Shown here one piece after another: positions 1 to 59,183 of a stretch of DNA of 64,000 nt. Position 1 is the stretch's first letter; every line of letters starts with the position of its first letter. The position numbers and the translations under genes were made by a program. The DNA lies in contig PASN01000010.1 in the NCBI GenBank assembly GCA_002711995.1, positions 256,485-320,484 of the forward strand. The letters run 5' to 3'. The stretch comes from Halobacteriovoraceae bacterium. Lineage in GTDB: Bacteria; Bdellovibrionota; Bacteriovoracia; Bacteriovoracales; Bacteriovoracaceae. The notes under the pieces are model-generated. The model was not told the DNA's origin, searched no databases, and worked only from the letters and a program-made list of their open reading frames with translations.

Positions 1-413
1 AAGACCATTGCCGTACAAGGCGCGGCACCTAGGATAATTGCTCCGGCCAAATACTCCTGGGCAAGTTCAGGATTGATATATGCTCCATAAAGTTTTTCAA
101 AAAACACCCACGCAAAGAAGGCCATTGTAAATGGTTTGATAAGCCAGTTAATAACGAGTGTTAGTCCAAGCCCTTTCGGATTTTTGCCCACATCTTTAAT
201 TGAGCCAAAGTCAACTTGAACCATCATGGGAAAAATCATAAGCCACACAAGAATGGCAACAGGTATATTGACTGATGCAATATTCATATCACTCAAAACC
301 TTAATTGAGTCTCCCAGAAGTTCACCAAGAATTATTCCACTCACAATGCATATTGCAACCCAAGCGCTTAGATACCTTTCAAAAAAACCCATTTGTTCAG
401 ACTCTTTACTCAT
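1..413 (-). CDS. arsB: ACR3-family arsenite efflux permease (partial, C-terminus off window)
   Basis: The first 137 residues of an ACR3-type (BART superfamily) permease, which exports arsenite across the inner membrane. The visible part starts MSKESEQMGFFERYLSAWVA and holds several hydrophobic segments and the loop GAAPCTAMVF, which carries the Cys conserved in ACR3 transporters. The start ATG (413-411) overlaps the stop of arsC by 8 bases, so translation is probably coupled. It is the last visible gene of a merR-type regulator, arsC, acr3 operon. The rest of the gene lies outside the window. ACR3 rather than the ArsB antiporter family is chosen from the PCTAMVF motif. Confidence 0.9.
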   Translation of the reverse strand, partial: MSKESEQMGFFERYLSAWVAICIVSGIILGELLGDSIKVLSDMNIASVNIPVAILVWLMIFPMMVQVDFGSIKDVGKNPKGLGLTLVINWLIKPFTMAFFAWVFFEKLYGAYINPELAQEYLAGAIILGAAPCTAMV

Positions 414-840
414 TTTTCCCACCTAAATAACTTTCAATATTGTTTACCATTTCTTTGATTTCATCTCTGACTCTCCTGTAGACGATCATCTTCTCTTCTT
501 CATCGTCGATATGACTTGTAAGCCTTGGAGGGTCATCAAAACCGGTGTGGATGATTTTGCCACCAGGAAAGAAAGGACAGTTTTCATGAGCATCCGAACA
601 GACGGTAAATACGTAGTCCATTTTTACCTCTGGCAGCTCGTCAGTTGTGTTCGATTCATGCCCACTAATATCCACACCGACCTCCCCCATTGCTTTAATT
701 GCAAATGGATTAAGGCCATGTTTTTTGGTGCCGGCAGAATAAAAGTTGAACTTGTCAGACTTGAGGTGCTTTCCCCAGCCCTCCGCCATTTGAGAGCGAC
801 ATGAATTGCCTGTGCATAAAAACAAAATGTTCTGTTTCAT
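406..840 (-). CDS. arsC: Thioredoxin-coupled arsenate reductase
   Basis: Cytoplasmic reductase that turns arsenate into arsenite for export by the ACR3 pump encoded next. The protein has the low-molecular-weight phosphatase loop CTGNSCRS (Cys9 to Ser16) and the redox pair Cys81 and Cys88 in CSDAHENCP. This is the same layout as the S. aureus plasmid pI258 enzyme, which uses Cys10, Cys82 and Cys89 and is recycled by thioredoxin. Length 144 aa is normal. It starts 4 bases inside the end of the MerR-type gene (ATGA overlap) and overlaps acr3 by 8 bases, so the three genes form a tight operon. Confidence 0.95.
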   Translation of the reverse strand: MKQNILFLCTGNSCRSQMAEGWGKHLKSDKFNFYSAGTKKHGLNPFAIKAMGEVGVDISGHESNTTDELPEVKMDYVFTVCSDAHENCPFFPGGKIIHTGFDDPPRLTSHIDDEEEKMIVYRRVRDEIKEMVNNIESYLGGKNE

Positions 841-1250
841 CTAGATTCTCCTTCTATAAAACAGTCTAAAATTGGACAATCGCTGAGCGGCTGGTTTAGA
901 TCGACACAACAATTTGCAAGTCCCTCAAGGGACTTCTTCATCTTTTTTAGATCTTTTATCTTCGTATCTATTTCTTTAATTTTTTCTTCAGTCTTTGAAA
1001 GAACATCACCGCACTTGGCCTTGTTCCTAATTTTCAACTCAAGCAACTCCTTCACTTCACTAAGAGTGAAGCCAAGTTCTTGAGACCTTTTTACAAAGCG
1101 AATCCGATCAATATACTCAGCAGGATAATGCCTGAATGAACCGTTCTTTTTTGGTTGTTCCAATATTCCCTTTCTCTCATAGAAACGAATGGTTTCCACA
1201 TTCACACCTGAAGACTGGGCCAGCTTTCCAATAGTTAATGATGTATTCAT
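837..1250 (-). CDS. MerR-family metalloregulator heading the arsenic operon
   Basis: A 137-aa MerR-type transcription factor: N-terminal winged helix (LTIGKLAQSSGVNVETIRFY), long dimerisation helix, and a C-terminal metal site. Its cysteines are Cys80, Cys114, Cys115, Cys125 and Cys130. MerR of Tn501 binds mercury with Cys82, Cys117 and Cys126, so the arrangement is mercury-like with one-residue shifts and an extra Cys. The ATG at 1250 is chosen because the longer reading frame (GTG at 1265) would run through the -10 box. There is no Shine-Dalgarno, and the predicted transcript starts at or beside the ATG. No merA or merT is near. The inducer (As, Hg or other thiophilic ion) is unknown. Confidence 0.88.
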   Translation of the reverse strand: MNTSLTIGKLAQSSGVNVETIRFYERKGILEQPKKNGSFRHYPAEYIDRIRFVKRSQELGFTLSEVKELLELKIRNKAKCGDVLSKTEEKIKEIDTKIKDLKKMKKSLEGLANCCVDLNQPLSDCPILDCFIEGESR

Positions 1251-1256
1251 GAGATC

Positions 1257-1288
1257 AGTATACACCCCGTACCATAGTACGGAGTCAA
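1257..1288 (-). promoter_or_regulatory. mer-type operator/promoter of the arsenic operon
   Basis: On the minus strand: TTGACT (1288-1283), a 20-base spacer, then TATACT (1262-1257). The spacer contains the dyad CCGTAC-N4-GTACGG (1267-1282). These arms are identical to the Tn501 mer operator half-sites, and the over-long 19-20 bp spacer is the hallmark of promoters that MerR proteins activate by untwisting DNA. The -10 box ends 6 bases before the regulator ATG. Confidence 0.85.
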
Positions 1289-1472
1289 TTTTTTTGTCTA
1301 CAAATCTTCACTGTATTTAAAACGGCCAAGTTCCGAAGGGATTTTAGGTGTCAGGATCTCACCAGTGTCAAATAAATTTGCAAATGTAGGTCTCCATGTA
1401 CCTGAATTTACAAATGTATTAATGGTATCTTAATTGCAAAAACCTTTGATAGAGATTGTACAAGGAGTCACA

Positions 1473-2807
1473 ATGAAACCGAACAAAAGCCTCTTATTCT
1501 TAATTCCTTTAGTTACATTTGCCATAGGCTGTGGAAAGAAAAATGGTGGTGGAAAAGGGGCAACTTCCCTAGATGATATAGATACTGCTTTAAACACTCC
1601 AGCAGTGGTTGCAGAGGAGCCCGACTTTAGCCAAGGTTTCGATAGCTTTGATTTTGATGGAAAGTCCACATTGGCAAGCTTTGGTCTCTTTGGTCGTTCA
1701 GACAAACAAGAATACATCAATGATGGAAAAATAAAGTTCGATCTGCTTTGGTCTAAAAGAACAAGAAACTTTATAGCTGACCAACTTGGAAGAGATAGAT
1801 CAGAAATGAATCACAACCTAACAAATCAGCTCTGTGAACCTAGGTTGGAAATCCATAAAGACAATGAAAGTAAAGTTGCAGAGCTGGACTCTGCTCTCTC
1901 GCACTGCGGAATTGATGGCGATGTGCCTGCGCAAGTCCAAATGAGAAGTTTCATTCCAACTACAATCGGACATAAATACACTCTAAGCTTTAAGTATAAA
2001 ATGAAGAGCTTTGAAGATATGGACAACAAGTCCTACAGACATCTACTAGTTCGCTTTGGCAAATTCAAACAAAAATATGATCCGGCCTTTGACGAATACA
2101 TCAAGGTGGATGTTGAGATTGTGGCAACAAGCAAACACACCAAACTTGCATTTGCTGACAACGGAAAAGCAGATGGGCATGGAGTTTTTTTAGACGACAT
2201 ACAAGTTAAGGACCTTGGCGAGGTTGAGCACTATGGTGCGTGTTTAAACAACTTCAAACTTAACTCAAAAGGCTTTAAAAAGTGTGTAAATGGAGAGATC
2301 GCTTCAGATGTCGCATGTTCATTCGATAATCCTGCAGATGCGGTTGTTCGTTACAAAGAGGGCAAAAATGTTAGCTCAAGGAGAGCGAATGTGGACAACA
2401 TGTTCACGGTTGAAGACCCTAAGAGAGGTAAAATAAACTTCTTATCCCTAGGTCTTGGCGGGCACGTGAGAGTAAAATGTGGAATAGAAAAGACACCTGC
2501 TCTATTTGATGTCTATGAAAAGACATTGAGCTTTGGCGAAGTGTCCTGGGGCAACGTAAGCATGAGTAACTACCCTGAAGTTGCCGTTGTTAAGATTAAA
2601 CTGCAAAACTGTGTGGATGAATCTTTAAATAGAACTATAAAACTTGCAAACGTTGGCACCGCCGAGTTTTTTGAATATAGCTTTACTCAAGACGAGGAAG
2701 GACGCTCCTTTGAGGGTTGTAAAATGAGCAACCTCACAATAAAGGACATTACTCCAAGCGGTCCAAGCTATGACGGCTTTGATGTGAATTCATTTGAGTT
2801 TTATTAA
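1473..2807 (+). CDS. Secreted lipoprotein with possible carbohydrate-binding-like module
   Basis: A 444-aa predicted lipoprotein. The ATG at 1473 is preceded by AAGGAG (1462-1467). The N-terminus is a short positive stretch, a hydrophobic core and a lipobox ending FAIGC (Cys about residue 20), followed by a Gly/Lys-rich linker. Around residues 160-230 a segment (HKYTLSFKYKM ... GVFLDDIQVKDLG) resembles the jelly-roll ligand-binding modules of secreted proteins. Many Cys in the second half suggest disulphides. It stands alone between the arsenic operon and a convergent lipoprotein gene. Function unknown; the fold suggestion is weak. Confidence 0.72.
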   Translation: MKPNKSLLFLIPLVTFAIGCGKKNGGGKGATSLDDIDTALNTPAVVAEEPDFSQGFDSFDFDGKSTLASFGLFGRSDKQEYINDGKIKFDLLWSKRTRNFIADQLGRDRSEMNHNLTNQLCEPRLEIHKDNESKVAELDSALSHCGIDGDVPAQVQMRSFIPTTIGHKYTLSFKYKMKSFEDMDNKSYRHLLVRFGKFKQKYDPAFDEYIKVDVEIVATSKHTKLAFADNGKADGHGVFLDDIQVKDLGEVEHYGACLNNFKLNSKGFKKCVNGEIASDVACSFDNPADAVVRYKEGKNVSSRRANVDNMFTVEDPKRGKINFLSLGLGGHVRVKCGIEKTPALFDVYEKTLSFGEVSWGNVSMSNYPEVAVVKIKLQNCVDESLNRTIKLANVGTAEFFEYSFTQDEEGRSFEGCKMSNLTIKDITPSGPSYDGFDVNSFEFY

Positions 2808-2834
2808 ATTTTGAATAGATAGTTATCCTTGAGT

Positions 2835-2865
2835 CAGGTCTTAATCCTATTGAGATTAAGGCCTG
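2835..2865. terminator. Hairpin between convergent genes
   Basis: Inverted repeat CAGGTCTTAATC / GATTAAGGCCTG around a 7-base loop, 11 of 12 positions paired as Watson-Crick. It lies between the stop of the plus-strand lipoprotein (2807) and the end of the minus-strand gene, whose stop codon (2856-2858) sits inside the right arm. There is no clear U-tract on either side, so a termination role for both genes is inferred. Confidence 0.5.
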
Positions 2866-4526
2866 TAAACACACCTAAACCCAACCTCAGAGTTACTCCA
2901 ACTAGTCGTTTGGTTTATCTGTATGCTAAAGGCGCCAGAATTTACTGTACCTGTATAAGAGCCGCCTCTTCTAATTACGCCTCCTGTTGAATAAGTATTT
3001 ACCGCCATTCTCCCTAGACCCTTATCTGAATTATAACCACTAACTCCAGCGGGGTTTTCAGGGCGAAATGTGTCATTGCTAATACCACTACAGGTCTTCC
3101 AATACACCTCAGTCCAAGCACCATCACAATTAGCAGGAGCCTCATCGTAGCTGCCCCCGGCAGTCCAATCCGTTAATTCAGCCACATTTCCGGCAAAGTC
3201 CCAGATTACACTTCCATTCAAAAGCCTTGACCTTGCTTTCAAGTTTCTACTTGTGCCGTATTCAGGATTGGCACCATCATATCCACAGGCGTCATTGAGA
3301 CCGTTGTTTCCTCTTCTAAGGCAGCCATTTCCAACAACACCACTTGTCCAGTTCTGAGGATTTGATTCAATATTTAAAGCGATGGTCATCCATTCATAAT
3401 TTGAAATTAGATCATAACCAGTTCCAAGAGAGGTGCACTCACTTTTTGCATTGTTGGCGCTAATAGACCTCCATGGTGACGTTTCTGGTTGAGAAGTTGG
3501 GACTCCACCAACATTTTTGGCCTCGTATTGCATCACGCAGAAACTATCCACTCCCAAGGATGAATTTGATGTCACTGGAACAAATCCAGAAGGGCACGTG
3601 ACAGCACTTAAATTTATCTCTGTATTCCCAGAACTATGGGAGCCATCGCTTACACTCACAGTTGCGGTGCAGCTTGAGTTTGCCGATGTGGGAATTGTTC
3701 CAGTCAACTCTCCAGTTGATGAATTGATTGAGAAATATCCTCACGGATCATTTGTCAGGCTCCATGTGAATGAGCCTGAGTCTGGATCATTTGCCGTTAG
3801 AGAACAACTATAGCTATCCCCCATAAAGTATTCTTTACAGCTTTGAGATATTGAAGGAGCGTCGTTTACAGCTGCAATGTTTAAAGTGGCAGTTGAAGTG
3901 TTGGATGACTGGCCATTTGTTTTAACAAGGTAGTCAAAGCTTGCGCTGCCGTTGTAGTTGGCATCTCCTGTAACCCCCACAGAACATTCTCCACCAGAGC
4001 ATGAACAGGGAGTGGTAACTGAAACATTTGAAAGAGTGCTTACCTCGCATGCGGTGGCGTCCTTATCATCGGTATAGCCAAGTTCAATAATGGACTCAAC
4101 GTCTTCATTAAAAGTTGACGCAGTAAAGCCAGCAGTTACAGGTGGACTCGAGCTCGCGACACTGACGTTTACAACTTTTTCAAGAGTTGAAGTTTTAATT
4201 GTAATAGTTGCTGTGCCAAGATTTTGCAGATCCAACACACCTTTTTTGCCTCCAGACTCAATGGTTAAGTCTCCTACAGAGCCATCTAAATTCCACGTTA
4301 CGGCCACATTGCTGGGAGCCCCTCCATTTATTGTTATAAGAGGAAGAAGCTCTATTTCTTGTCCTATCTCACAATCTATATTTTCCACAATCGCAGTTTG
4401 ACTTACCTCACCTTGAGCAAGATAGAGTTTTTTAAAGAGAGCGCCTTCTCCAGAAACGCTACCTCCTCCACCGCTGCAGCTTGCAAAAAATATTAAAACA
4501 ACAAAAAATTTGAGGGACCTAATCAT
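2856..4526 (-). pseudogene. SUMF1-like-fold lipoprotein interrupted by an in-frame TGA
   Basis: One reading frame of 556 codons broken only by a TGA at 3743-3741 (codon 262). The N-terminal part (4526-3744) has a lipoprotein signal ending FFASCSGGG, then Ig/cadherin-like repeats (VNDAPSIS, SFTWSLTNDP). Directly after the TGA, in the same frame, comes GYFSINSSTGELTGTIPTS, which finishes the cadherin-like repeat, then a SUMF1/formylglycine-generating-enzyme-like domain (WDFAGNVAELTD, IRRGGSY, VGFRCV at the end). The domain is probably structural here. The second half has only a TTG at 3707 as a possible restart, with no signal peptide. Called a pseudogene from a nonsense mutation; readthrough or a sequencing error cannot be excluded. 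Confidence 0.8.
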
Positions 4527-46466: not shown

Positions 46467-47462
46467 TTATTTTAAGCTGTTTAAAGCTTCTACAATATCT
46501 TTGGGTTCCGCTCTTTGAACGTAGTCGACATTTAAGAAGGAGTATACGATTTCTCCGTTCTTATCTATTACATAGGTTGCAGGAACAGGCAGTTCCCACG
46601 AGTCGTTGCCTTGATTCTTTTCAAGATCTAGACCAAACTTTAAGTAAACATTTTTAAGTTCTTCGCTAAGTTTAAATACAAGCCCGTACTTTCTTGCAAC
46701 TTTATTAAGGTTATCGCTTAAAATTTCGTACTCGATTTTATTTTTATCGACTGTGGTGCTTCCTGAGTCAGATGATTCAGGTGAAACGGCAATAAGTTGC
46801 CCACCGGCGGCCTTAAATTCTCCAAGGTGGTCTTGATACGCTTTAAGTTGAATATTGCAGTATGGACACCAACCGCCTCTATAGAAAGTTAAGATCACAG
46901 GGCCATCTTTAAGTTTTTCAGACAACTTAACGTTTTCACCATTAATATTTGGCAGCGTAAAGTCTACGAACTTGTCCCCTTTGGATTTTGCCTTTGCTAT
47001 CATTCCAGACTTTTCAAGTTCTTCCGTTGCCTGTTCCATTGTCATTCTTGCGCTGTCTGGAATATTTGAGCCAGCTCTTCTACCGTCAAGTTCGGCCTGT
47101 AATGAATTTCCTAGTTTTTTTTCGATAAAGCCCACTATTTTCTCCTTTTTTGTGATTCCGAAAACTCTGCCCGTCTCTTTTTCATTTATAAATGATAAGA
47201 GCATGGACTGTTGAAAAATTTTGTTTTTCTTTAAAAATTCTTTGTCGTTGTCGAAGTCCACTTCCAGCAACTTGTAAGATTTCTTATCAAGCGAGGAAAT
47301 AATCTTCTTTTGAGTTTTACAGGATGGACACCAATCAGCGTGAACATGAACTAAAACTCGCTCATTTTTTTGTAAAAACTTTTCGATTTTTTTAGTTGAG
47401 TCCTCTTTTGCGTAAAGAATGCAACTAAACAAGAAGGTGGTGATAAAAAGATGCAACTTCAT
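46467..47462 (-). CDS. Exported thioredoxin-peroxiredoxin fusion
   Basis: A 331-aa exported protein with two redox domains. Signal peptide MKLHLFITTFLFSCILYAKE. Domain 1 (about 20-115) is a thioredoxin fold with ADWCPSCKTQKK. A linker is followed by domain 2 (about 160-331), an AhpC/TSA PRX-like2 domain with FYRGGWCPYCNIQL and VPATYVIDKNG. It is encoded 16 bases after a CcdA-like transmembrane electron carrier, and both seem controlled by a TetR. The likely role is reduction of peroxides in the periplasm with electrons passed from CcdA to the thioredoxin domain. The fusion is unusual. Confidence 0.87.
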   Translation of the reverse strand: MKLHLFITTFLFSCILYAKEDSTKKIEKFLQKNERVLVHVHADWCPSCKTQKKIISSLDKKSYKLLEVDFDNDKEFLKKNKIFQQSMLLSFINEKETGRVFGITKKEKIVGFIEKKLGNSLQAELDGRRAGSNIPDSARMTMEQATEELEKSGMIAKAKSKGDKFVDFTLPNINGENVKLSEKLKDGPVILTFYRGGWCPYCNIQLKAYQDHLGEFKAAGGQLIAVSPESSDSGSTTVDKNKIEYEILSDNLNKVARKYGLVFKLSEELKNVYLKFGLDLEKNQGNDSWELPVPATYVIDKNGEIVYSFLNVDYVQRAEPKDIVEALNSLK

Positions 47463-47477
47463 TAATAACTCCTTAGG

Positions 47478-48203
47478 TTAAATTGAAAGGGATAAATTGG
47501 TTATAAACTCAGGCAAAATGCTTAATATAAATGCCTCTAGGTCTTTATCTAGTCCAGTTAGGATCAGTACAGACATGATTGCGCAAAACAGCCCCATGCT
47601 TATCTTGATGCCTTTGGAGTTTTCCAAACTCTTTCTTTGAACTTTGGCCACGAACTTTTGGGCACCATATGAAAAAAGAAGTATTGGAAGAATGGATCCA
47701 ATTGAAAAGACGGCGAGAAGAACCATAGAAGACTTTACTTCTGGCGTGTTTATAATAATTCCTATTATTATCGCCAGTGTAGGGCCACTGCATGGCGCCC
47801 AGACAGGTCCAAGGAAAAGACCATTTACGAACTCCATATATAAAGACCCATCCTTCCCACTGCTTTTATTCAAACCTTGTATTTTATTGTTGATTGGAGA
47901 CAGCGCCAGCGAAAGCTTGTCGATCAGCTTTGGAAATAAAAAAAACATCGAGGCAATTAGAAGAAATACTCCAGAAAGGATTTTTAACTTGTCTGGTGTG
48001 AGTCCTATAAGTTGACCAGAAGTTGCCACCACGTAGGTTGTAATGGAAAAGCTTAGAGAAACTCCTATGGCCAACAACACTGGTCCCCATTTTGATCTTT
48101 GCAGGGAAGAGCGCACAACAAAAGGCACCATTGGCAGTATGCACGGGGAAAATATGGTTAAAATCCCGGCCGCAAATGAACTAAATATTAAACTAATTGA
48201 CAC
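47478..48203 (-). CDS. ccdA: CcdA/DsbD-like transmembrane thiol electron carrier
   Basis: A 241-aa inner-membrane protein with six predicted helices. The two conserved Cys-Pro motifs are TIFSPCILPMVPF (helix 1) and GPVWAPCSGPTLAI (helix 4), which take electrons from cytoplasmic thioredoxin and pass them to periplasmic partners. GTG start at 48203 is supported by a purine-rich GGGAGGGAAG upstream. It is followed by the thioredoxin-peroxiredoxin fusion. A TetR-type palindrome lies 16 bases before the start codon. Confidence 0.9.
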   Translation of the reverse strand: MSISLIFSSFAAGILTIFSPCILPMVPFVVRSSLQRSKWGPVLLAIGVSLSFSITTYVVATSGQLIGLTPDKLKILSGVFLLIASMFFLFPKLIDKLSLALSPINNKIQGLNKSSGKDGSLYMEFVNGLFLGPVWAPCSGPTLAIIIGIIINTPEVKSSMVLLAVFSIGSILPILLFSYGAQKFVAKVQRKSLENSKGIKISMGLFCAIMSVLILTGLDKDLEAFILSILPEFITNLSLSI

Positions 48204-48218
48204 CTTCCCTCCCCTTTC

Positions 48219-48234
48219 TTGACCTATCGGTCAA
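48219..48234. promoter_or_regulatory. TetR operator copy 1 (before ccdA)
   Basis: Perfect palindrome TTGACC-TATC-GGTCAA between the TetR gene stop and the ccdA start. Its arms are identical to those of the copy in front of the TetR gene itself (48839-48854), so one repressor should control both. Confidence 0.85.
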
Positions 48235-48252
48235 ATAGCACGCAAAAAAAAT

Positions 48253-48819
48253 TTAAATCATTAAATCAAAATCTCTCAATGCGTTATTCGCAATTTGTTT
48301 TAAGAACTTTCGATCTTTTCTGAACTTTGAAATCTCCCTGATGGAAAAAGCTGCTGAAATTAAGTTTGTTTTAACTTTATCAACTTCAAGAGAAGAATTC
48401 TCTTCAGCAATGGCCTTTGCCACATTGGCCAAGTTTAACTCGGTCGCTGCGAACATATCGCTGGCCTTTTCTCCGAGTGCGTTTTTACCCATAAACTCAA
48501 GACATGAATTCATGATAAGACAACCTTTAGTAAAATCCTTTTTTACGCCTTCATCAACCAAGCGCTTGAAGAACTTAACAAGATATTCTTTGGGATCCCC
48601 TTTTTTATAAAAAAGACCTCTGGAGTATACGCTATACTTTTCCAAACAGAGCATGAACAACTTTTCTTTGGATCCGAAAGTGTTATATAGGCTTCCTTTA
48701 AGAAGACCGGTGGCATCCATAAGATCACGCATGCTCGTGTTCTCATAGCCTTTGTTCCAAAAGACCTCCATGGCCTTGCCTATAATTTCATCTCTATCAA
48801 AGTCGGGGGTTCTGCTCAT
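48253..48819 (-). CDS. TetR-family repressor of the ccdA-peroxiredoxin unit
   Basis: A 188-aa regulator. N-terminal HTH: KAMEVFWNKGYENTSMRDLMDATGLLKGSLYNTFGSKEKLF, typical of the AcrR/NemR-like subgroup; C-terminal ligand domain with Cys in TKGCLIMNSCLEF, which might sense thiol-reactive compounds as NemR does. That sensing role is inference. No Shine-Dalgarno before the ATG; the -10 box ends 6 bases upstream, suggesting a leaderless transcript. Two identical-arm palindromes flank the gene. Confidence 0.88.
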   Translation of the reverse strand: MSRTPDFDRDEIIGKAMEVFWNKGYENTSMRDLMDATGLLKGSLYNTFGSKEKLFMLCLEKYSVYSRGLFYKKGDPKEYLVKFFKRLVDEGVKKDFTKGCLIMNSCLEFMGKNALGEKASDMFAATELNLANVAKAIAEENSSLEVDKVKTNLISAAFSIREISKFRKDRKFLKQIANNALRDFDLMI

Positions 48820-48825
48820 GGTATT

Positions 48826-48854
48826 ATTCTAAGCTTACTTGACCGATTGGTCAA
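48826..48854 (-). promoter_or_regulatory. TetR promoter with operator copy 2
   Basis: Minus strand TTGACC (48854-48849), a 17-base spacer, TAGAAT (48831-48826). The palindrome TTGACC-GATT-GGTCAA (48839-48854) covers the -35 box, giving direct autorepression. The -10 ends 6 bases before the ATG (48819). Confidence 0.8.
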
Positions 48855-48995: not shown

Positions 48996-49442
48996 ATGAA
49001 CAAGAAAAAGACAATTTCATTAGTTGCTCATGACAATAGAAAAAAAGATTTAATAGATTGGTGCTTAACACACAAAAAGATTCTTTCGAAGCACCAATTA
49101 TGTGCAACAGGTACAACAGGGCGACTCTTAGAGGAAAAGCTTGGTGTAAAAATAAAAAGGTATCTGAGCGGACCAATTGGCGGTGACTTTCAACTCGGAA
49201 GTTCAATTGTTGAGGGCGATATTGATATGCTTATTTTCTTTTGGGATCCCTTAGAGTCTATGGCACACGATCCAGATATAAAGGCACTTTTAAGAATCGC
49301 GACTCTCTATAATGTGCCAATGGCCTGTAACCAAAGCAGTGCTGACTATTTTATAAACTCATCTCTAATGAATGGTAACTACCAAAGAAAGTTGTCCGTC
49401 TTAAAGAGTTACAAACAAAACAGATCAACGTTTAATCCTTAA
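48996..49442 (+). CDS. mgsA: Methylglyoxal synthase
   Basis: A 148-aa enzyme that converts dihydroxyacetone phosphate to methylglyoxal in the cytoplasm. Family motifs: LVAHDNRKKDLIDW (phosphate contact), CATGTTGRLLE, RYLSGPIGGDFQLGSSI (catalytic Asp after GG), FFWDPLESMAHDPDIKALLR and VPMACNQSSADYFI. Length matches E. coli MgsA. It stands alone; regulation by phosphate is known in the family. Its product is a toxic aldehyde, which fits the aldehyde-detoxification genes elsewhere in the window. Confidence 0.95.
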   Translation: MNKKKTISLVAHDNRKKDLIDWCLTHKKILSKHQLCATGTTGRLLEEKLGVKIKRYLSGPIGGDFQLGSSIVEGDIDMLIFFWDPLESMAHDPDIKALLRIATLYNVPMACNQSSADYFINSSLMNGNYQRKLSVLKSYKQNRSTFNP

Positions 49443-49519: not shown

Positions 49520-52500
49520 TTAAAGCGTCGTTTGAACCTCTTTAACATTAGAAATTTCCTCATTATACTCGTTCTCTTGAGGACTTCTTCTCTTAAAAAG
49601 ACCAATCGCTTTTTCAAGATAATTATAAACAAGTGGAATAAGTACAAATGTGAAGAACATCGAGGCCACCATTCCGCCAACGACAACCGCACCCATTGAC
49701 GCCTTCACCCCATCATTATCAAAAAGTTGAGGCAGTGTACCGGCGATAACGGCAAGGGAGGTCATGGCGATAGGCCTAAACTTCTCTTCCACGGCCGCCC
49801 ACAGTGAGTCCTGTATACCCTTTCCGTTCTGCTTATGCACCATAGTCTGATCCAACAATAGAATTGCGTTGTTAACGGCCAACCCAACCAACATTACAAA
49901 TGCCATCATCGATCCAATATTAATAGTGAACTCCATAAAGAATAGAAAATAGAACACACCAACAAAAGAGGTGAATACAGCACTTACAATCGTAAATGGG
50001 TGAATAAAAGAGTTTAGGATTGCCACCAATAACATGTAAGTTAAGATAACCGCCATTAAAAACGCTGTGGCAATTTCTTGGCCAGTTTCCTCCATGCTCT
50101 CCGCTCTACCAGTAAATGCAAAGTCATATCCTTGTTCAAATTCGATTTCTTCGTTGAACTTTTCTGCCAAAAAGGTTTGAACTTCGTTTGCGGAACTCTT
50201 TGATAGGTAACCTGCAAGCTGGATAATTCTTCTTTTATCTCTTCTTTTCAGTGGCGGAAGAGCTTTTTGAACCTTCAGGTCACCCAATCTAGATATTGGT
50301 AGAAGTCCACCTTTGGTGTCGATATAAAGCGAGGATATGTCATCGATATTCCTTTTAAACTCATCAGCTACGGTAACGTTAATGTCATACTCTTCACCAA
50401 GCTCTCTAAATACCGCCACGTCGTCTCCAGTGACAGCAGTTCTTATAAGAGGTCCAACCTGTGAGTTGGAGACGCCAAACATCTGAAGAGCATTTGTGTC
50501 TGGAACAAAAACAATTTCATCCTTAGGGTCTTTGTGAGTTGACGTGATTGATCTAAAAAAGCCAGAGTCCTTCATAATGGTCTCCATCTCTTTAGATAGC
50601 TCGACCATTTTATCGTATTCGATCCCTCGCACATCAATTGTGATATCGGCTTCACCAGAAGCACCACCACCGGCCCCTCTGGCCATTGTGATTTTAGCAT
50701 CGGGGATTTTTGCAAATTGTGGAGTCAATAGGTTAATAATGTCGACATCACTTCTATTTCTTTTTTCCAAGTCTTCAAGGTTTACAATAACCCTTGCGTT
50801 CTCATAGCCATCTTCACCAACAATGGACAAGAAGCTTGAAACCTCAGGCACCTTATCAACATAATTTTCAATCTGTTCAACGGCCTTGGATGTTTCACTC
50901 AGGGCGGAACCTTGTGGCATTTCAACCGTCACTCGTATGATATCTTCATCGGATGCAGAAAAGAACTCTCCACCTATATAAGGCATAATTAAGGCAGGAG
51001 ACGCAACAATCAAAAAGATTACAATCAAGCTAGTCTTTGGGATTTTAAATAGAAGTTTGAAGATTTTTTGATACTCCTTTAATAGAAAGTTTAGTGATGC
51101 ATCAACTGGGCCTACAATAAGCCTTTGTAAAAGTTTTCTAACAGGACCATCATTTTTATGTTCTTTATGCTCCACCATTTTACGACTAAGAAGTGCTCCA
51201 CACATCATTGGAGTTAAAGTGAAAGACCCAATAACCGAAAAGATAGTGGCAAACACAACCGTTAGGCCGAATTGATTCATAAACTGGCCAACCATTCCTC
51301 CCATAAATGCAATTGGAGTAAACACAACAAGGTTTGTGCCAGCTGATGCCAGTACGGCCAATGCTACATCTTTTGTTCCTTGAATTGCGGCTTCCTGGGA
51401 CTCAAGACCCTGTTCCAGCTTGCTCACTACAGACTCAATAATAACAATTGCGTTTGCGATTAAAGTACCTAAAGCAGTACCCACGGCTAAAAGAGTCATC
51501 ATATTGATACTAAACTTGGCGAAGTCCATGAGAAGGAAACTAGATATAATTGAAGTTGGGATAACAACCGCGGCAATGAATGTTACTCTAAAGTTTCCAA
51601 GAAACATGAATAGAATCACGACCGTTAATACAACCCCTATGGCAATATTATTTAAGGTGTTATTGGTATTTGCGATGATTCTTTCAGTGGAATCAGATGC
51701 CACTTCTAGTTTTGTACCTTCAGGCAAAGTGTTTGCTATTTCTTTGATTTCATTACGCGCTCTTGCAGCGATTGAAATGGCATCCCCATCCGAAAGCTTA
51801 TTAATGGCAAGTGTGACAGCTTTTGTACCATTCCACCTTGACTCAGTCTCAACATCTTCAGCGCCATCAACGACTGTTGCCACATCGCTAAGTTTAATGC
51901 GAATCCCCTCTTGAGTAACAATAGGCATGTCTCTAATATCTTTAACAGTTTGAAACTCACCTTGGAACCTAACTGTGACTTCATTTTTACCTTGAGTGAT
52001 GGAACCACCAGGTACATTTAGGTTTCGTTTTTTAATAGCACTGGAGATATCTGTTAAAGTGACAAAGTATCTCTGCATAAGGTTTCTATTTAGATTGATG
52101 TTGATTTGACGCTCAAGTCCACCTGAGATCTCTACAGACGCAACACCTGGCACAGTGGACAATAGAGGTTTAACATCTTTGTCTGCCATCTGATATAGCT
52201 CTCTTGCATCCAGCTTATCTGAAGAAAGAGTTAGGTAAAATATTGGTGTTACAAGCGGATCAAATTTGGAAATAATAGGTCTTTCGGCAGCATCAGGCAG
52301 CTCATTCAAGATGGCCTCCACCTTATCCTTTACCTCGATCGCTTTATTATTAACGTCTGCTTTAATCTCGAATTCAATCATTAGAAGACCAAAGCTCTCA
52401 TAAGCATTTCCATTGATCTTTTTTATGTCAGAAATCTCTGCTACCGCATCTTCCACTTTTTTCAAAAGCTGAGTTTCAACTTCGATTGGAGTCGCTCCAG

Positions 52501-52648
52501 GATAAGGCATGTTAATACTAACGATTGGGTACTCAATACGTGGAGTCGCTTCAATAATTAGGTTTTTGTATGAAAATAATCCTAAGACGACAAATATCAG
52601 AATAAATACGATAGTCATCGCCGGACGTTTTACGAATGTTTCAATCAT
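49520..52648 (-). CDS. RND-superfamily permease lacking the usual proton-relay residues
   Basis: A 1042-aa inner-membrane protein of the AcrB/HAE1 type with full length and two periplasmic porter halves (IEATPRIEYPIVSINMPYPG at the start). In AcrB TM4 has LLVDDAIVVVENV (Asp407, Asp408) and TM10 has GLSAKNAILI (Lys940). Here the same positions read TLIANAIVIIESV and GLAVNNAILLLD, so both Asp and the Lys are replaced. The TM11 Thr (MTSLAV) is kept. Normal RND proton coupling is not possible with this set; another acidic residue or another energy source must be used. Operon: TetR, TolC, adaptor, permease, each overlapping by 4 bases. Confidence 0.9.
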   Translation of the reverse strand: MIETFVKRPAMTIVFILIFVVLGLFSYKNLIIEATPRIEYPIVSINMPYPGATPIEVETQLLKKVEDAVAEISDIKKINGNAYESFGLLMIEFEIKADVNNKAIEVKDKVEAILNELPDAAERPIISKFDPLVTPIFYLTLSSDKLDARELYQMADKDVKPLLSTVPGVASVEISGGLERQININLNRNLMQRYFVTLTDISSAIKKRNLNVPGGSITQGKNEVTVRFQGEFQTVKDIRDMPIVTQEGIRIKLSDVATVVDGAEDVETESRWNGTKAVTLAINKLSDGDAISIAARARNEIKEIANTLPEGTKLEVASDSTERIIANTNNTLNNIAIGVVLTVVILFMFLGNFRVTFIAAVVIPTSIISSFLLMDFAKFSINMMTLLAVGTALGTLIANAIVIIESVVSKLEQGLESQEAAIQGTKDVALAVLASAGTNLVVFTPIAFMGGMVGQFMNQFGLTVVFATIFSVIGSFTLTPMMCGALLSRKMVEHKEHKNDGPVRKLLQRLIVGPVDASLNFLLKEYQKIFKLLFKIPKTSLIVIFLIVASPALIMPYIGGEFFSASDEDIIRVTVEMPQGSALSETSKAVEQIENYVDKVPEVSSFLSIVGEDGYENARVIVNLEDLEKRNRSDVDIINLLTPQFAKIPDAKITMARGAGGGASGEADITIDVRGIEYDKMVELSKEMETIMKDSGFFRSITSTHKDPKDEIVFVPDTNALQMFGVSNSQVGPLIRTAVTGDDVAVFRELGEEYDINVTVADEFKRNIDDISSLYIDTKGGLLPISRLGDLKVQKALPPLKRRDKRRIIQLAGYLSKSSANEVQTFLAEKFNEEIEFEQGYDFAFTGRAESMEETGQEIATAFLMAVILTYMLLVAILNSFIHPFTIVSAVFTSFVGVFYFLFFMEFTINIGSMMAFVMLVGLAVNNAILLLDQTMVHKQNGKGIQDSLWAAVEEKFRPIAMTSLAVIAGTLPQLFDNDGVKASMGAVVVGGMVASMFFTFVLIPLVYNYLEKAIGLFKRRSPQENEYNEEISNVKEVQTTL

Positions 52649-53313
52649 TTCTGCTCTCCTGTTACAATTCTTGCCACGTCACCTTTATTTAGGGAGCTAG
52701 CACCCCTTACTATTAACTTCTCACCAATTGAAAGACCTTCCACAATCTCAACATACAATTGTGACTCCTCACCTTTTTTTATAAAGCGTTTAACTGCTTT
52801 GCCATCATCGGTAAGAACCCATACAAAACTCTTTTTATCTATTTGCTTGATGGATGTTGAAGGAATCATAACAATATTCTTTAAGGTCTTAGTGTTGATA
52901 TCAACAACAACGTTTTTGGCCATTTCAGCCTTGGATGCTGAGCTGCGCTTGACTAAAACCTTGTAGAGACCAGTGTTGGTGTCTGGGCGACTGCTTTTAT
53001 ACACGACCTTCCCTTCTTCAACTCCACGATCAGTGAATACTCTTGCCTCTTGAAAGGCAATAATCTTTTGCCACTGAATCTTGGAGACCATCAGTTCAAC
53101 CTCTTCTTGATTGCCTTGACCAGTCACTCTTTCAAAAAATTTAAGATCATCGGTTTTAACTTGAAACGTCTCCACAGGTTTTCCAAATTTTTTGTGTTCA
53201 TTGGCTATAGAAATAGTGGGAGCGTTTCTTTTTTCCTTAATCACTCCAATTTTCCAATTCACCGATGCCGCGATTAACACGACAAGCCCTATATAAAAGA
53301 TAGCTCTAATCAT
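52645..53313 (-). CDS. Reduced periplasmic adaptor (MFP) lacking lipoyl and hairpin domains
   Basis: A 222-aa protein with an N-terminal anchor (MIRAIFYIGLVVLIAASVNW) and only the beta-barrel part (EGKVVYKSSRPDTNTGLYKVLVK) and membrane-proximal part (MIPSTSIKQIDKKSFVWVLTDDGKAVKRF; EGLSIGEKLIVRGASSLNKGD) of RND adaptors. Normal adaptors have 350-400 aa with a split lipoyl domain and a coiled-coil hairpin that touches TolC; neither is seen here. It overlaps the TolC-like gene and the permease gene by 4 bases each, so it is a real operon member, not a fragment. Confidence 0.85.
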   Translation of the reverse strand: MIRAIFYIGLVVLIAASVNWKIGVIKEKRNAPTISIANEHKKFGKPVETFQVKTDDLKFFERVTGQGNQEEVELMVSKIQWQKIIAFQEARVFTDRGVEEGKVVYKSSRPDTNTGLYKVLVKRSSASKAEMAKNVVVDINTKTLKNIVMIPSTSIKQIDKKSFVWVLTDDGKAVKRFIKKGEESQLYVEIVEGLSIGEKLIVRGASSLNKGDVARIVTGEQK

Positions 53314-54629
53314 TTTGCCACCACTCCTTTAGTAAATCTCTTTATGGATGCTCTGTTTTGATAAATTTGAAACAAAGCGGTTTGTTGTTGAATTCGCGCA
53401 TTGGTTAGTGAGCTTTCTGCGGTGTTAAGATCATTTCTAGTTGCCCCACCTGTTTCAAAGCGAGTCCTAGTTAGTTCATAACCTCTTTTTGCGAGACCAA
53501 CAGCTTTTTTGGCGGCCGCAAATTTTTGGATGTTCGCCTTATATTCTTCGATAGCTGATGCCAACTCAACCTCAAGAATTTCTTTCTGCTTCTTTAGTTC
53601 TATTTTTGCCTTCACTGCGTCTAGTGCCGCTTGTTGATGACGCGCTTTAACTGCGCCCCCCTCAAAAATAGGAATATTCAAGCTCAAACCAATCGCTGAA
53701 GATGTAAACATTCGCTCATCCTCTGGTTGGAAAGTATCTCCAGTTCCTCCGTGGTTTAACTGCCCAAAGGCCGAGATCGTCGGATAGTGTTCGGCCTTGG
53801 CAAGCATGGTCTGCTTTTGAGCTATTTGCGCCGCCAACTCAATAGATTTTAAAGAAGGGTTCTCATATGCCTCATCTAAAAGTTTGCTCTTATCTAGAAC
53901 CGGAAAGAGTGTGGACATGCTTGTGGTCAATCGAGGTTGTGATTCTATTGGCATTTCGGTAAGTAGGTTTAGCTGAAGAAATGCAAGCCTTAGGTTTTTT
54001 TGCGCATCTGAAACGATTGGGGCCCTACTTGCAATATCGGCCGCCATTCTTATGTTGTCGAAACGGGGCACACGTCCACCTTGAAATCTTTTCTGAAGGG
54101 CCTCAAGATTTTTCTTAGCATTTCCGTGGGAGTCTTTTGCAATCTGAAGAACTTCCTGCGCAGACAATGCGTTAAAGTAAGCAACTTCAACAGCGAACCT
54201 TATTTCTCTCTCCACCGCTTCCTTAGCAGACTGCCTTGCATCTTGTGAGATTTTGGCCAGGTCAAGAGCGTGACTTACTCTGCCAAAGCTATAGATAACT
54301 TGATTTAGTTGAAGACTGGACAGCATTTCCCAGTCTTCCTTAATGCGAGCACTTGTATCGCCAATTTGTATTACAGGGGATTTTGTGTGCCTTATAGATT
54401 GGAAGTTAGCAGAGATCTGCGGCAACACACTCGCCCATGCTTCCTTGATTTGTGCCTGTGCTCTTTGTACCTCGATGGCAGCCTGCTGCACATTTTCACT
54501 TCGCTTTAAGGCTAATTTTGTTGCCTCCTCCAAGCTTAGCCTTTCCTGCCCGTACGCACCGGGGCCAGCGACCCAAGCGCAGATGAGCGCCATCATTAGC
54601 CAGATATTTCTCATTCTTATACTCCTCAT
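53310..54629 (-). CDS. TolC-like outer-membrane efflux protein
   Basis: A 439-aa protein with signal peptide (IWLMMALICAWVAGPGAYGQ). Two repeats of long helices and short strands typical of TolC: LSLEEATKLALKRSENVQQA at the start and SLKSIELAAQIAQKQTMLAKAEHYPTISAFGQ in the second half, with GLSLNIPIFEGGAVKARHQQA and RYETGGATRND-like ends (ARTRFETGGATRNDL). It forms a trimeric export tunnel. Encoded between the TetR gene and the reduced adaptor gene, with 4-base overlaps on both sides. Confidence 0.92.
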   Translation of the reverse strand: MRSIRMRNIWLMMALICAWVAGPGAYGQERLSLEEATKLALKRSENVQQAAIEVQRAQAQIKEAWASVLPQISANFQSIRHTKSPVIQIGDTSARIKEDWEMLSSLQLNQVIYSFGRVSHALDLAKISQDARQSAKEAVEREIRFAVEVAYFNALSAQEVLQIAKDSHGNAKKNLEALQKRFQGGRVPRFDNIRMAADIASRAPIVSDAQKNLRLAFLQLNLLTEMPIESQPRLTTSMSTLFPVLDKSKLLDEAYENPSLKSIELAAQIAQKQTMLAKAEHYPTISAFGQLNHGGTGDTFQPEDERMFTSSAIGLSLNIPIFEGGAVKARHQQAALDAVKAKIELKKQKEILEVELASAIEEYKANIQKFAAAKKAVGLAKRGYELTRTRFETGGATRNDLNTAESSLTNARIQQQTALFQIYQNRASIKRFTKGVVAK

Positions 54630-55240
54630 TTGACACTTATTCCGTTTATAAAAGTTTCCGTTATGTGTTTTAAATATTCTTCTCTAAAGTTCTCATTGTC
54701 TTTGATTGAACACCCAAACAGTGTTTCTCGATTTGAATCATGGCAGACGGCCTGAAAAAAACTCGACATAAATAATGAAGCGGTAATGAATGGGTTAAGA
54801 TCTTCCCTTACGATTCCTTGTTCTTTTGCTGAATTAAAAAATGCAACAAGCTTCTTAAATAGTTGCACGAAAGATTTACCTATAATTGAAGGTTCTTTTT
54901 TGTCATCTCTTTGAAGCTCCTTAAAAACCAACCTTACAAGCTCTTGTCTTTCCGTATAAATTCCAAAGATATGTTCTGTGAATTTGGATAGCTTTTTTTC
55001 AAAGTCGATTAAGTCTGAAGAAGGGGCAAGAATCTTCTCAACCAAGGAGAGAGTCTCTAGCCCAAAGTCCTCTATGCAGGCCTGGTAAAGCCCTTCTTTG
55101 CCGGAGAAATAGTAGCTAATGGCTGAAATGTTTACTCCAGCACTGTTTGCAATCTCTCTAATCGATGCGCCATCAAGCCCTTTTTCTAAAAATAGCTTCT
55201 GAGCGTGTTTAATCAGCTTATGCTTTGGTGTGCTATCCAT
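54626..55240 (-). CDS. TetR-family regulator heading the RND operon
   Basis: A 204-aa regulator. HTH: HAQKLFLEKGLDGASIREIANSAGVNISAISYYFSGKEGLYQACI, the CerR/AcrR-like HTH with ISYYF. C-terminal helices bind the ligand (KELQRDDKKEPSI). ATG at 55240 is chosen; a TTG at 55249 is also in frame. It is the first gene of the operon and overlaps the TolC gene by 4 bases, so autoregulation would set pump expression. Two palindromes stand upstream, shared with the divergent TetR gene. Confidence 0.87.
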   Translation of the reverse strand: MDSTPKHKLIKHAQKLFLEKGLDGASIREIANSAGVNISAISYYFSGKEGLYQACIEDFGLETLSLVEKILAPSSDLIDFEKKLSKFTEHIFGIYTERQELVRLVFKELQRDDKKEPSIIGKSFVQLFKKLVAFFNSAKEQGIVREDLNPFITASLFMSSFFQAVCHDSNRETLFGCSIKDNENFREEYLKHITETFINGISVK

Positions 55241-55262
55241 AGTAATCAAACGTCCGATTCAA

Positions 55263-55310
55263 GTAAACGACATCGTTTACATCACACACAAAGTAAACCA
55301 TATCGTTTAC
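55263..55310. promoter_or_regulatory. Two GTAAAC palindromes between divergent tetR genes
   Basis: Copy 1 (55263-55280) GTAAACGA-CA-TCGTTTAC is perfect; copy 2 (55293-55310) GTAAACCA-TA-TCGTTTAC differs at one arm position. Centres are 30 bp apart, nearly three DNA turns, so two repressor dimers could sit on one face. They occupy the promoter region of the RND operon and lie 58 bases before the second TetR gene. Confidence 0.88.
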
Positions 55311-55367
55311 CACTTCAAGAAAATAATGCTATAATTAGTTAAGTTAAAAGATTACAAGAGGTTAGAG

Positions 55368-55964
55368 ATGTCTTCAGAGATAAAACAATTAAGTAAGAAA
55401 GAGGAAATTATCTCTGCAAGTATTGAAATCTTCGTGAATGAAGGTTTTGACCGCCCAACAATGGACTCTATAGCATCCCGGGCCAAAGTTTCTAAACGGA
55501 CCCTTTATAAGTATTTTTCCAACAAGCATGCCCTACTGGACGAGATTATCTTCCGGCTTGTCGATGAAAAGCATAGTAGCTTAAACTTCAAGTACAGTAA
55601 GGATGAAGATATTCTTCTTCAAATCCAAAACATTATCAAGCATAAGACTGATCACCTGCTTTGTCCCAGCAACTTAAAGCTTGCTAAGATCATTCTATCC
55701 GAGGCCCTAAAGGGTGAAGGGTTTTTAAAGGATATGTTAGAAGAAGTGCTAAGGACCGAAAGGGTAACCTTGGAATGGATTAAACAGGCCCAAGAGGATC
55801 AAAAGCTGTTAAAAGAAGAGCCACTAGTGATACTGGACTTTCTCAACGAACTAGTAAACGGAATTATATTTTTCCCAATTCTTTTCGGTAAAAAAGACCA
55901 AGTAACTAAAAAAGAAATTGAAGATGTATCTCGAATGTTTCTGTTCCTCAAGGGTGTTAATTAA
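55368..55964 (+). CDS. Second, divergent TetR-family regulator
   Basis: A 198-aa regulator. HTH: ASIEIFVNEGFDRPTMDSIASRAKVSKRTLYKYFSNKHALLDEI, with a C-terminal domain of the AefR-like type (LKLAKIILSEALKGEGFL; NGIIFFPILFGKK). Divergent from the RND operon and sharing the region with the two GTAAAC palindromes. Either or both TetR proteins may bind these. A good Shine-Dalgarno (AAGAGGTTAGAG) precedes the ATG. No gene follows that it obviously controls. Confidence 0.85.
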   Translation: MSSEIKQLSKKEEIISASIEIFVNEGFDRPTMDSIASRAKVSKRTLYKYFSNKHALLDEIIFRLVDEKHSSLNFKYSKDEDILLQIQNIIKHKTDHLLCPSNLKLAKIILSEALKGEGFLKDMLEEVLRTERVTLEWIKQAQEDQKLLKEEPLVILDFLNELVNGIIFFPILFGKKDQVTKKEIEDVSRMFLFLKGVN

Positions 55965-58622: not shown

Positions 58623-59183
58623 CTAAAGGTTCTCCAGTATTTCTGTGTTTTTAGTTCTTTCTTTATAATTTAAATGAACATCAGCGTATTTGATCTTGCC
58701 TGATTTAACGATGAATACAGCTGGGTGGGCCACAATATGATGCTTTTCTCCAGAGTCGCCTTCCACATCGATTGAGTAAGAGTTCTTATATTTTTTAACG
58801 AGCTTCTCATCAAGCTTGTTGGCAATTTCAAACTTCTTTAACAACTCCGCTTTAGGATCGCTAACAATATGAAAGCCTAAATCAAATTTTCTTTTCATTT
58901 TCTTTGCGACTGCAGACCTATCCACACTTATACCTATGACTGCTTGTTTGGTCTTAAGCTTTGGAACAACTTCACTTTGAATGGATTTTAACTGGGTCAT
59001 GCAGTAAGGACACCAGGAGCCTCTGTAAAATACAAGCACATACTCTTTATTGCTTAAGGTAAGGTCAATCTCCTTCCCCTCTGTAGTAACTATTTTTTCA
59101 ACAGGAACCTTTTCACCAACTTTAACGCCTTCAGCAGCAAAGACCGTACTTAGAAACAGAGCTAAGACTATTGCGAGTTTCAT
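58623..59183 (-). CDS. Exported peroxiredoxin-like protein (AhpC/TSA, CPYC type)
   Basis: A 186-aa exported protein: signal peptide MKLAIVLALFLSTVFAAEG, then a PRX-like domain with VLVFYRGSWCPYCMTQLKSIQ and IGISVDRSAVAKKM, HPAVFIVKSGKIKYADV. The same WCPYC site is found in the thioredoxin-peroxiredoxin fusion at 46467-47462, so the window has two periplasmic peroxiredoxins of this type. Electron donor not adjacent; the CcdA chain could serve. 12 bases downstream of the PhnA-like gene, same strand. Confidence 0.85.
   Translation of the reverse strand: MKLAIVLALFLSTVFAAEGVKVGEKVPVEKIVTTEGKEIDLTLSNKEYVLVFYRGSWCPYCMTQLKSIQSEVVPKLKTKQAVIGISVDRSAVAKKMKRKFDLGFHIVSDPKAELLKKFEIANKLDEKLVKKYKNSYSIDVEGDSGEKHHIVAHPAVFIVKSGKIKYADVHLNYKERTKNTEILENL

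Follow-up and report, generated by a model that had tools for sequence, protein, structure and literature searches.

Gene content of the locus

Three genes lie in tandem on the minus strand of the window, by which we mean the whole 64,000-nucleotide stretch of DNA analysed here: tetR, ccdA and a gene for an exported fusion of a thioredoxin (Trx) domain with an AhpC/TSA domain. The open reading frames are as described in the earlier note on this DNA, and their Pfam domains agree. The genes are separated by 49 nt (tetR/ccdA) and 15 nt (ccdA/fusion). The features are listed below, where PrxL stands for the peroxiredoxin-like domain.

48253-48819, minus strand: tetR, 188 aa, a TetR-family repressor nearest to CifR (Pfam TetR_N 3.5e-13)
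47478-48203, minus strand: ccdA, 241 aa, GTG start, a CcdA/DsbD-beta-type membrane thiol carrier
46467-47462, minus strand: gene for the Trx + AhpC/TSA-domain fusion, 331 aa
47406-47462, minus strand: signal peptide of the fusion, aa 1-19, read by eye, with a putative cleavage site
47115-47405, minus strand: Trx domain of the fusion, aa 20-116; WCPSC with Cys45 and Cys48, codons 47319-47330
46467-47114, minus strand: helical linker and PrxL domain, aa 117-331; YRGGWCPYC with Cys199 and Cys202, codons 46857-46868
48219-48234: operator 1, TTGACCTATCGGTCAA, between tetR and ccdA, 15 nt ahead of the ccdA start
48839-48854: operator 2, TTGACCGATTGGTCAA, 19 nt ahead of the tetR start; its minus-strand arm is a -35 hexamer
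48826-48854, minus strand: tetR promoter, TTGACC (48854-48849), a 17-nt spacer and TAGAAT (48831-48826)

Divergent from tetR, and sharing the region with operator 2, is a methylglyoxal synthase gene (48996-49442, plus strand). It was considered as a member of the regulon and rejected, as it is absent beside the trio in the five other loci described below. The window also holds an RND efflux operon (49520-55964) for an AcrB-type pump, a probable adaptor and an outer membrane channel; one tetR gene adjoins that for the channel, and next to it lies another tetR in divergent orientation.

Conservation and transfer of the trio

A search for the same trio elsewhere had been proposed before, and we made it in 59 related genomes, in 369 genomes of the phylum and by a scan of a named collection. 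The order tetR-ccdA-fusion is found in five further genomes (G004, G082, G094, G100 and G288), making it syntenic in six Bdellovibrionota genomes with that of the window. The G082 locus is the same contig as in Halobacteriovoraceae SAT179, and the G094 locus the same as in Bacteriovoracaceae UBA3083. The flanking genes differ among all six loci; therefore the limits of the unit are the three genes and the two operators.

In two of the loci other genes follow the fusion. Directly after it in G094 come two genes (L158, 3778-4612), one of the DoxX/DoxD family and another for a small membrane protein, which are perhaps extra members of the unit there, and in G082 a gene with a CoA-binding domain and one for SelO (protein adenylyltransferase) follow closely on the same strand (L157, 5759-7621).

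The similarity of the trio between genomes does not follow that of their other genes. G288 belongs to another family than the window genome; the two share 61% identity in RpoB and 42% in ProS, whose gene is adjacent to the trio, while CcdA is 68%, TetR 67% and the PrxL domain 77% identical. Conversely, G004 and G094 are of one genus with 98% identity in RpoB, yet identity between them is only about 50% for CcdA and TetR and 65% for the fusions. These values show that the trio is transferred horizontally as one block. We considered contamination of G288 as the cause and rejected it: ProS, about 200 bp away, is nearest to that of G209 (59%) and not to that of the window genome (42%). Since G209 is also the nearest genome for RpoB (76%), the contig with the trio looks native to G288.

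Eight fusions were found in all, by searches that include the collection scan (best 80 of 574 relatives); rarer ones may exist outside Bdellovibrionota. In an unconstrained tree the six from the trio loci group together with support of 97/91, and the other two, L054 and L161, are placed elsewhere; a single origin of all eight is not rejected by the AU test (p 0.365). No relative was found on viral contigs. The plasmid search gave single-domain PrxL only, and no place covering 80% of the query. Phrases for a Trx-peroxiredoxin fusion had no match in the literature searched.

Operators, promoter and repressor

A perfect TTGACC-N4-GGTCAA palindrome had been reported ahead of both tetR and ccdA, and a pattern search of the window finds these two sites as its sole exact matches. 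The 3.7-Mb genome has one further copy, which was left uncounted as an operator as it sits within a coding sequence of no relation to the trio. A control search of the same genome with the pattern reversed gave zero matches. Both operators are found at equivalent places in all six syntenic loci. Nine of the twelve sites are perfect and three have one mismatch, retaining TTGACC-N5-GTCAA. This recurrence excludes a chance origin of the palindromes. With operators kept in 6/6 loci, varying flanks and block transfer, the earlier view of the locus as one self-contained regulated unit holds.

The tetR promoter scores highest in the region, with 10/12 positions matched. The TTGACC arm of the tetR operator is usable as a minus-strand -35 hexamer in each of the six loci. 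Comparable -10 elements in the other five loci read TAAACT, TAAAAT, TAAGAT, TAAAGT and TATGAT, at spacers of 16-17 nt (19 nt in G004). Operator 2 overlaps the -35 of tetR itself, and autorepression is therefore very likely. Further, the ATG starts 6 nt past the -10 in the window and 5-6 nt past it in the other loci, so near that the tetR mRNA is predicted to be leaderless or nearly so. At the ccdA operator the promoter scan of the region found no convincing promoter; this site may be a road-block or act on a weak local promoter.

The nearest solved relative of the repressor is CifR, both by sequence (phmmer 2.9e-13) and by predicted fold, where it takes Foldseek ranks 1-3. Cys100 of the repressor (codon 48520-48522) aligns with CifR Cys107, the residue mutated to Ser in structure 6nsm, and is invariant across 14 aligned TetRs. 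Cys100 is a candidate for thiol sensing; the G-C-L motif around it is common in that TetR branch and may possibly be no sensor. Given CifR as relative and the conserved Cys100, an electrophile, one of the inducers named before, is a reasonable guess.

The membrane carrier

The trio carrier is a short polytopic protein matching DsbD_TM (3.1e-11) and DsbD_2 (2.6e-10), with one Pro-Cys motif close to helix 1 and one in the latter half of the chain, the arrangement of CcdA/DsbD beta-domain carriers. Its catalytic cysteines are Cys21 (SPCILP) and Cys138 (APCSGP). Both motifs, kept also in the G004 homologue, align with the CcdA structure 5vkv (8.9e-10), in line with its earlier description as CcdA-like.

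The carrier of the trio is not a ScsB. A ScsB is a large carrier with a periplasmic N-terminal and a C-terminal Trx domain in one chain, whereas the trio protein is a CcdA of 241 aa with the transmembrane domain only. All six trio genomes do encode a second, longer DsbD-type protein; in the window genome this separate DsbD/ScsB-like protein has 714 aa and combines DsbD_N and DsbD_TM with a Trx-like domain. Therefore the trio is an additional, probably inducible route, and CcdA need not be the sole donor of electrons.

The exported fusion protein

Export of the fusion had also been claimed, and a signal peptide can be read by eye at the N-terminus of all eight fusions found. In the window it is MKLHLFITTFLFSCILYAKE, and the AlphaFold model has a hydrophobic helix at aa 3-14. 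This model is confident (pLDDT 92.5) and has two domains, as does the Pfam search: Thioredoxin (1.4e-10, aa 24-115) and AhpC-TSA (1.1e-35, aa 162-307). The fold matches cover residues 156-331 alone, so the Trx domain is placed by sequence rather than by fold.

The C-terminal domain has a peroxiredoxin fold, with Bcp4 (Z 21.6) and AhpE (Z 21.2) as best VIA-align matches, and Cys202 aligns with the peroxidatic cysteine of 2cx3, 2ywn and 5epf. However, the catalytic PxxxT/SxxC motif and active-site Arg of peroxiredoxins are replaced in sequence alignments: the Pro by Arg195, the Thr/Ser by Cys199 and the Arg by Pro294. The domain instead carries YRGxWCPYC with a downstream DYxxR, and it is about 41-50% identical to NCBI "peroxiredoxin-like family protein" members from many phyla, a group that we take to be CDD PRX_like2. 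Judged by these motifs, it is of the WCPYC "peroxiredoxin-like" type, and only peroxiredoxin-like. In 101 sequences Tyr194, Arg195, Gly196, Trp198-Cys202, Tyr314 and Arg317 are invariant, although for WCPYC this is in part a product of the search, as some of the loci were retrieved with the pattern GWCPYCN. Tyr314 and Arg317 may partly substitute for the lost residues.

Of the claim of a peroxide-reducing peroxiredoxin, the fold and the position of the peroxidatic cysteine stand, and the catalytic Pro, Thr and Arg do not. With these replaced, peroxidase activity is possibly slow or absent; peroxide is a putative substrate, and its reduction by the fusion is plausible.

The window has a second exported peroxiredoxin-like protein (58623-59183, minus strand), a standalone one of 186 aa with FYRGSWCPYC, whose gene is flanked by a YjdM/PhnA-domain gene and a Gly_transporter gene.

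Related loci

Most members of the PrxL family are single-domain and cytoplasmic. As read by eye, standalone PrxL proteins of the window's relatives mostly have a signal peptide or lipoprotein signal, and those of other phyla are mostly without. In Brumimicrobium (L129, 3161-4636) PrxL follows an N-terminal part in the same chain that resembles a lipoprotein and weakly matches LolA, which is another envelope version.

In six Bdellovibrionota genomes (L163-L168) ccdA adjoins a gene for an exported, unfused Trx, and in two cyanobacteria a Trx gene comes next after that for PrxL. L054 (the L162 locus, 25-4241) has, in order, an ECF sigma factor, an NrsF anti-sigma factor, CcdA, a Trx-PrxL-MsrB triple fusion (MsrB part SelR 1.2e-44) and DUF1223. 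Systems of the NrsF type answer to HOCl in Brucella (PMC8315932) and to H2O2 in Bradyrhizobium; the Bradyrhizobium regulon includes a CcdA-like protein, a periplasmic Trx and MetSO reductases, one predicted to be periplasmic (PMC3420878). The strongest argument that the core deals with oxidants in the envelope is its occurrence under two regulators, of which one is of an oxidant-sensing type and comes with an attached repair enzyme. Unfused CcdA-Trx pairs, PrxL-Trx neighbours and Trx-PrxL-MsrB under ECF sigma/NrsF make a path from cytoplasmic Trx via CcdA and the Trx domain to the C-terminal domain likely.

Further, 13 fetched loci, mostly from Gammaproteobacteria, have a divergent TetR immediately upstream of a standalone PrxL. 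In 11 of the 13 (L074, L078, L080, L084, L091, L115, L117, L122, L124, L127 and L128) the intergenic region holds a TTGAAT-N4-ATTCAA-like palindrome whose arms differ by no more than one base; six are perfect. The TTGACC-N4-GGTCAA of the window resembles this operator type, with the inner bases changed. Divergent TetR-PrxL is possibly a general regulatory pair; we know of no description of it, within a limited literature search.

Proposed mechanism

Taken together, we regard the trio as, on balance, a probable case of an autorepressed, horizontally mobile envelope oxidant-defence cassette with a CcdA-fed exported Trx-PrxL fusion. Gene order, operators and their conservation, promoter overlap, domains, predicted fold, cysteine positions and block transfer were computed; DNA binding, inducer, electron direction and substrate are inferred.

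At rest, TetR would sit on both palindromes, shutting its own -35 and entry to ccdA. An oxidant or electrophile would modify TetR, most likely at Cys100, and make it leave the DNA. CcdA would then draw electrons from cytoplasmic thioredoxin, move them across the inner membrane via Cys21/Cys138 and hand them to the exported Trx domain at Cys45/Cys48. The Trx domain would reduce the Cys199/Cys202 pair of the tethered PrxL domain. Cys202 would in turn reduce an oxidant or an oxidised thiol, most likely a hydroperoxide and possibly a sulfenic acid or reactive chlorine or thiocyanate species, and Cys199 would resolve it as a CxxC disulfide.

A narrower form of this explanation, the one given in the earlier note, takes the domain for a true peroxiredoxin of the atypical 2-Cys kind that acts specifically on H2O2 or organic peroxides; it is tentative, if a serious candidate. 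It draws on the retained fold and cysteine position, and a periplasmic peroxidase, PprX, is known (PMC9144841); however, the three defining active-site residues are absent, H2O2 readily crosses membranes and few periplasmic peroxidases are known (PMC9144841).

The same regulated CcdA route might instead feed a protein disulfide or sulfenate reductase, similar to TlpA, ResA or DsbG and acting on envelope proteins rather than scavenging small oxidants. We find this rather unlikely. The CxxC in place of TxxC and the lost Pro, Thr and Arg agree with it, ResA/DsbE are among the matches in the profile search and in Foldseek, and more than one target could in that case be served by the Trx domain. 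However, the fold is nearest to peroxiredoxins (Bcp4 and AhpE, Z about 21) and not to ResA, a fusion to Trx is more natural for a Trx-consuming peroxidase, and the MsrB attached in L054 points to oxidant damage.

A wider proposal, also doubtful, makes the WCPYC domain a reductase of envelope oxidants (e.g. HOSCN, HOCl-derived chloramines or protein sulfenates) and not a peroxidase, and the widespread TetR-PrxL pair with its TTGA-N8-TCAA operator a general, undescribed thiol-stress switch, which Trx fusion and CcdA capture would have made into a mobile periplasmic module.

Least probable, and in our view a long way from likely, is that TetR governs an electrophile or epoxide response in which the redox genes shield envelope thiols from alkylation and by-products: CifR as nearest solved relative, the Cys100-Cys107 match and the upstream region shared with methylglyoxal synthase would suit it, but that gene does not neighbour the trio in any of the five further loci and the unit is without epoxide hydrolase, NemA or GloA.

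Comparison with known systems

By analogy, the nearest working counterparts of the trio are systems of CcdA, an external Trx and Msr rather than Caulobacter ScsB/PprX. In Streptococcus pneumoniae (CcdA1/Etrx1/MsrAB2 and CcdA2/Etrx2) CcdA passes electrons of cytoplasmic Trx to an exported Trx that supplies an oxidant-repair enzyme, and all are encoded in one operon (PMC3914529). The pneumococcal chain ends in MsrAB and its Trx is a separate lipoprotein, whereas in the trio Trx is fused to PrxL under TetR control. The EcfF/OsrA regulon of Bradyrhizobium has an H2O2-inducible pair of CcdA-like Bll1027 and periplasmic Trx Bll1026, proposed to serve an envelope oxidant-repair enzyme; Blr7043 is a MetSO reductase (PMC3420878). 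Its sigma/NrsF control type is shared by L054. It differs from the trio in having an ECF sigma factor, separate genes and Msr in place of TetR, a fusion and PrxL.

Neisseria PilB is not known to be encoded together with its carrier, and ScsB is a larger multi-domain carrier. PilB (Trx-MsrA-MsrB) resembles the trio fusion as an exported Trx fused to its client oxidant-repair domains; the client is Msr, with no PrxL (PMC6210582). In Caulobacter a membrane thiol carrier likewise feeds a cell-envelope peroxidase, PprX, reported to reduce H2O2 and cumene hydroperoxide (Cho et al. 2012, as cited in PMC9144841); the ScsB/PprX partners are unfused, whereas Trx and PrxL of the trio are in one chain. 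From most of the PrxL group, single-domain and cytoplasmic, the trio protein differs by its export and its Trx fusion.

Implications

The trio combines known parts in a new way and is a variation on the known systems of CcdA, external thioredoxin and oxidant repair. As an autorepressed cassette it appears to send electrons across the inner membrane to a single exported protein of two domains, which probably neutralises oxidants. The carriers of the trio are Bacteriovorax-like; many members of this group are predators, and their envelope may be exposed to oxidants derived from prey and from oxygen. If this reading is true, it describes a small, inducible set of three genes that carries the carrier, the shuttle and the enzyme of an envelope oxidant defence from genome to genome as one block, with their own repressor and operators. 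Two proteins would then suffice to address both how an oxidising compartment gets dedicated reducing power and what the very widespread WCPYC peroxiredoxin-like family reduces.
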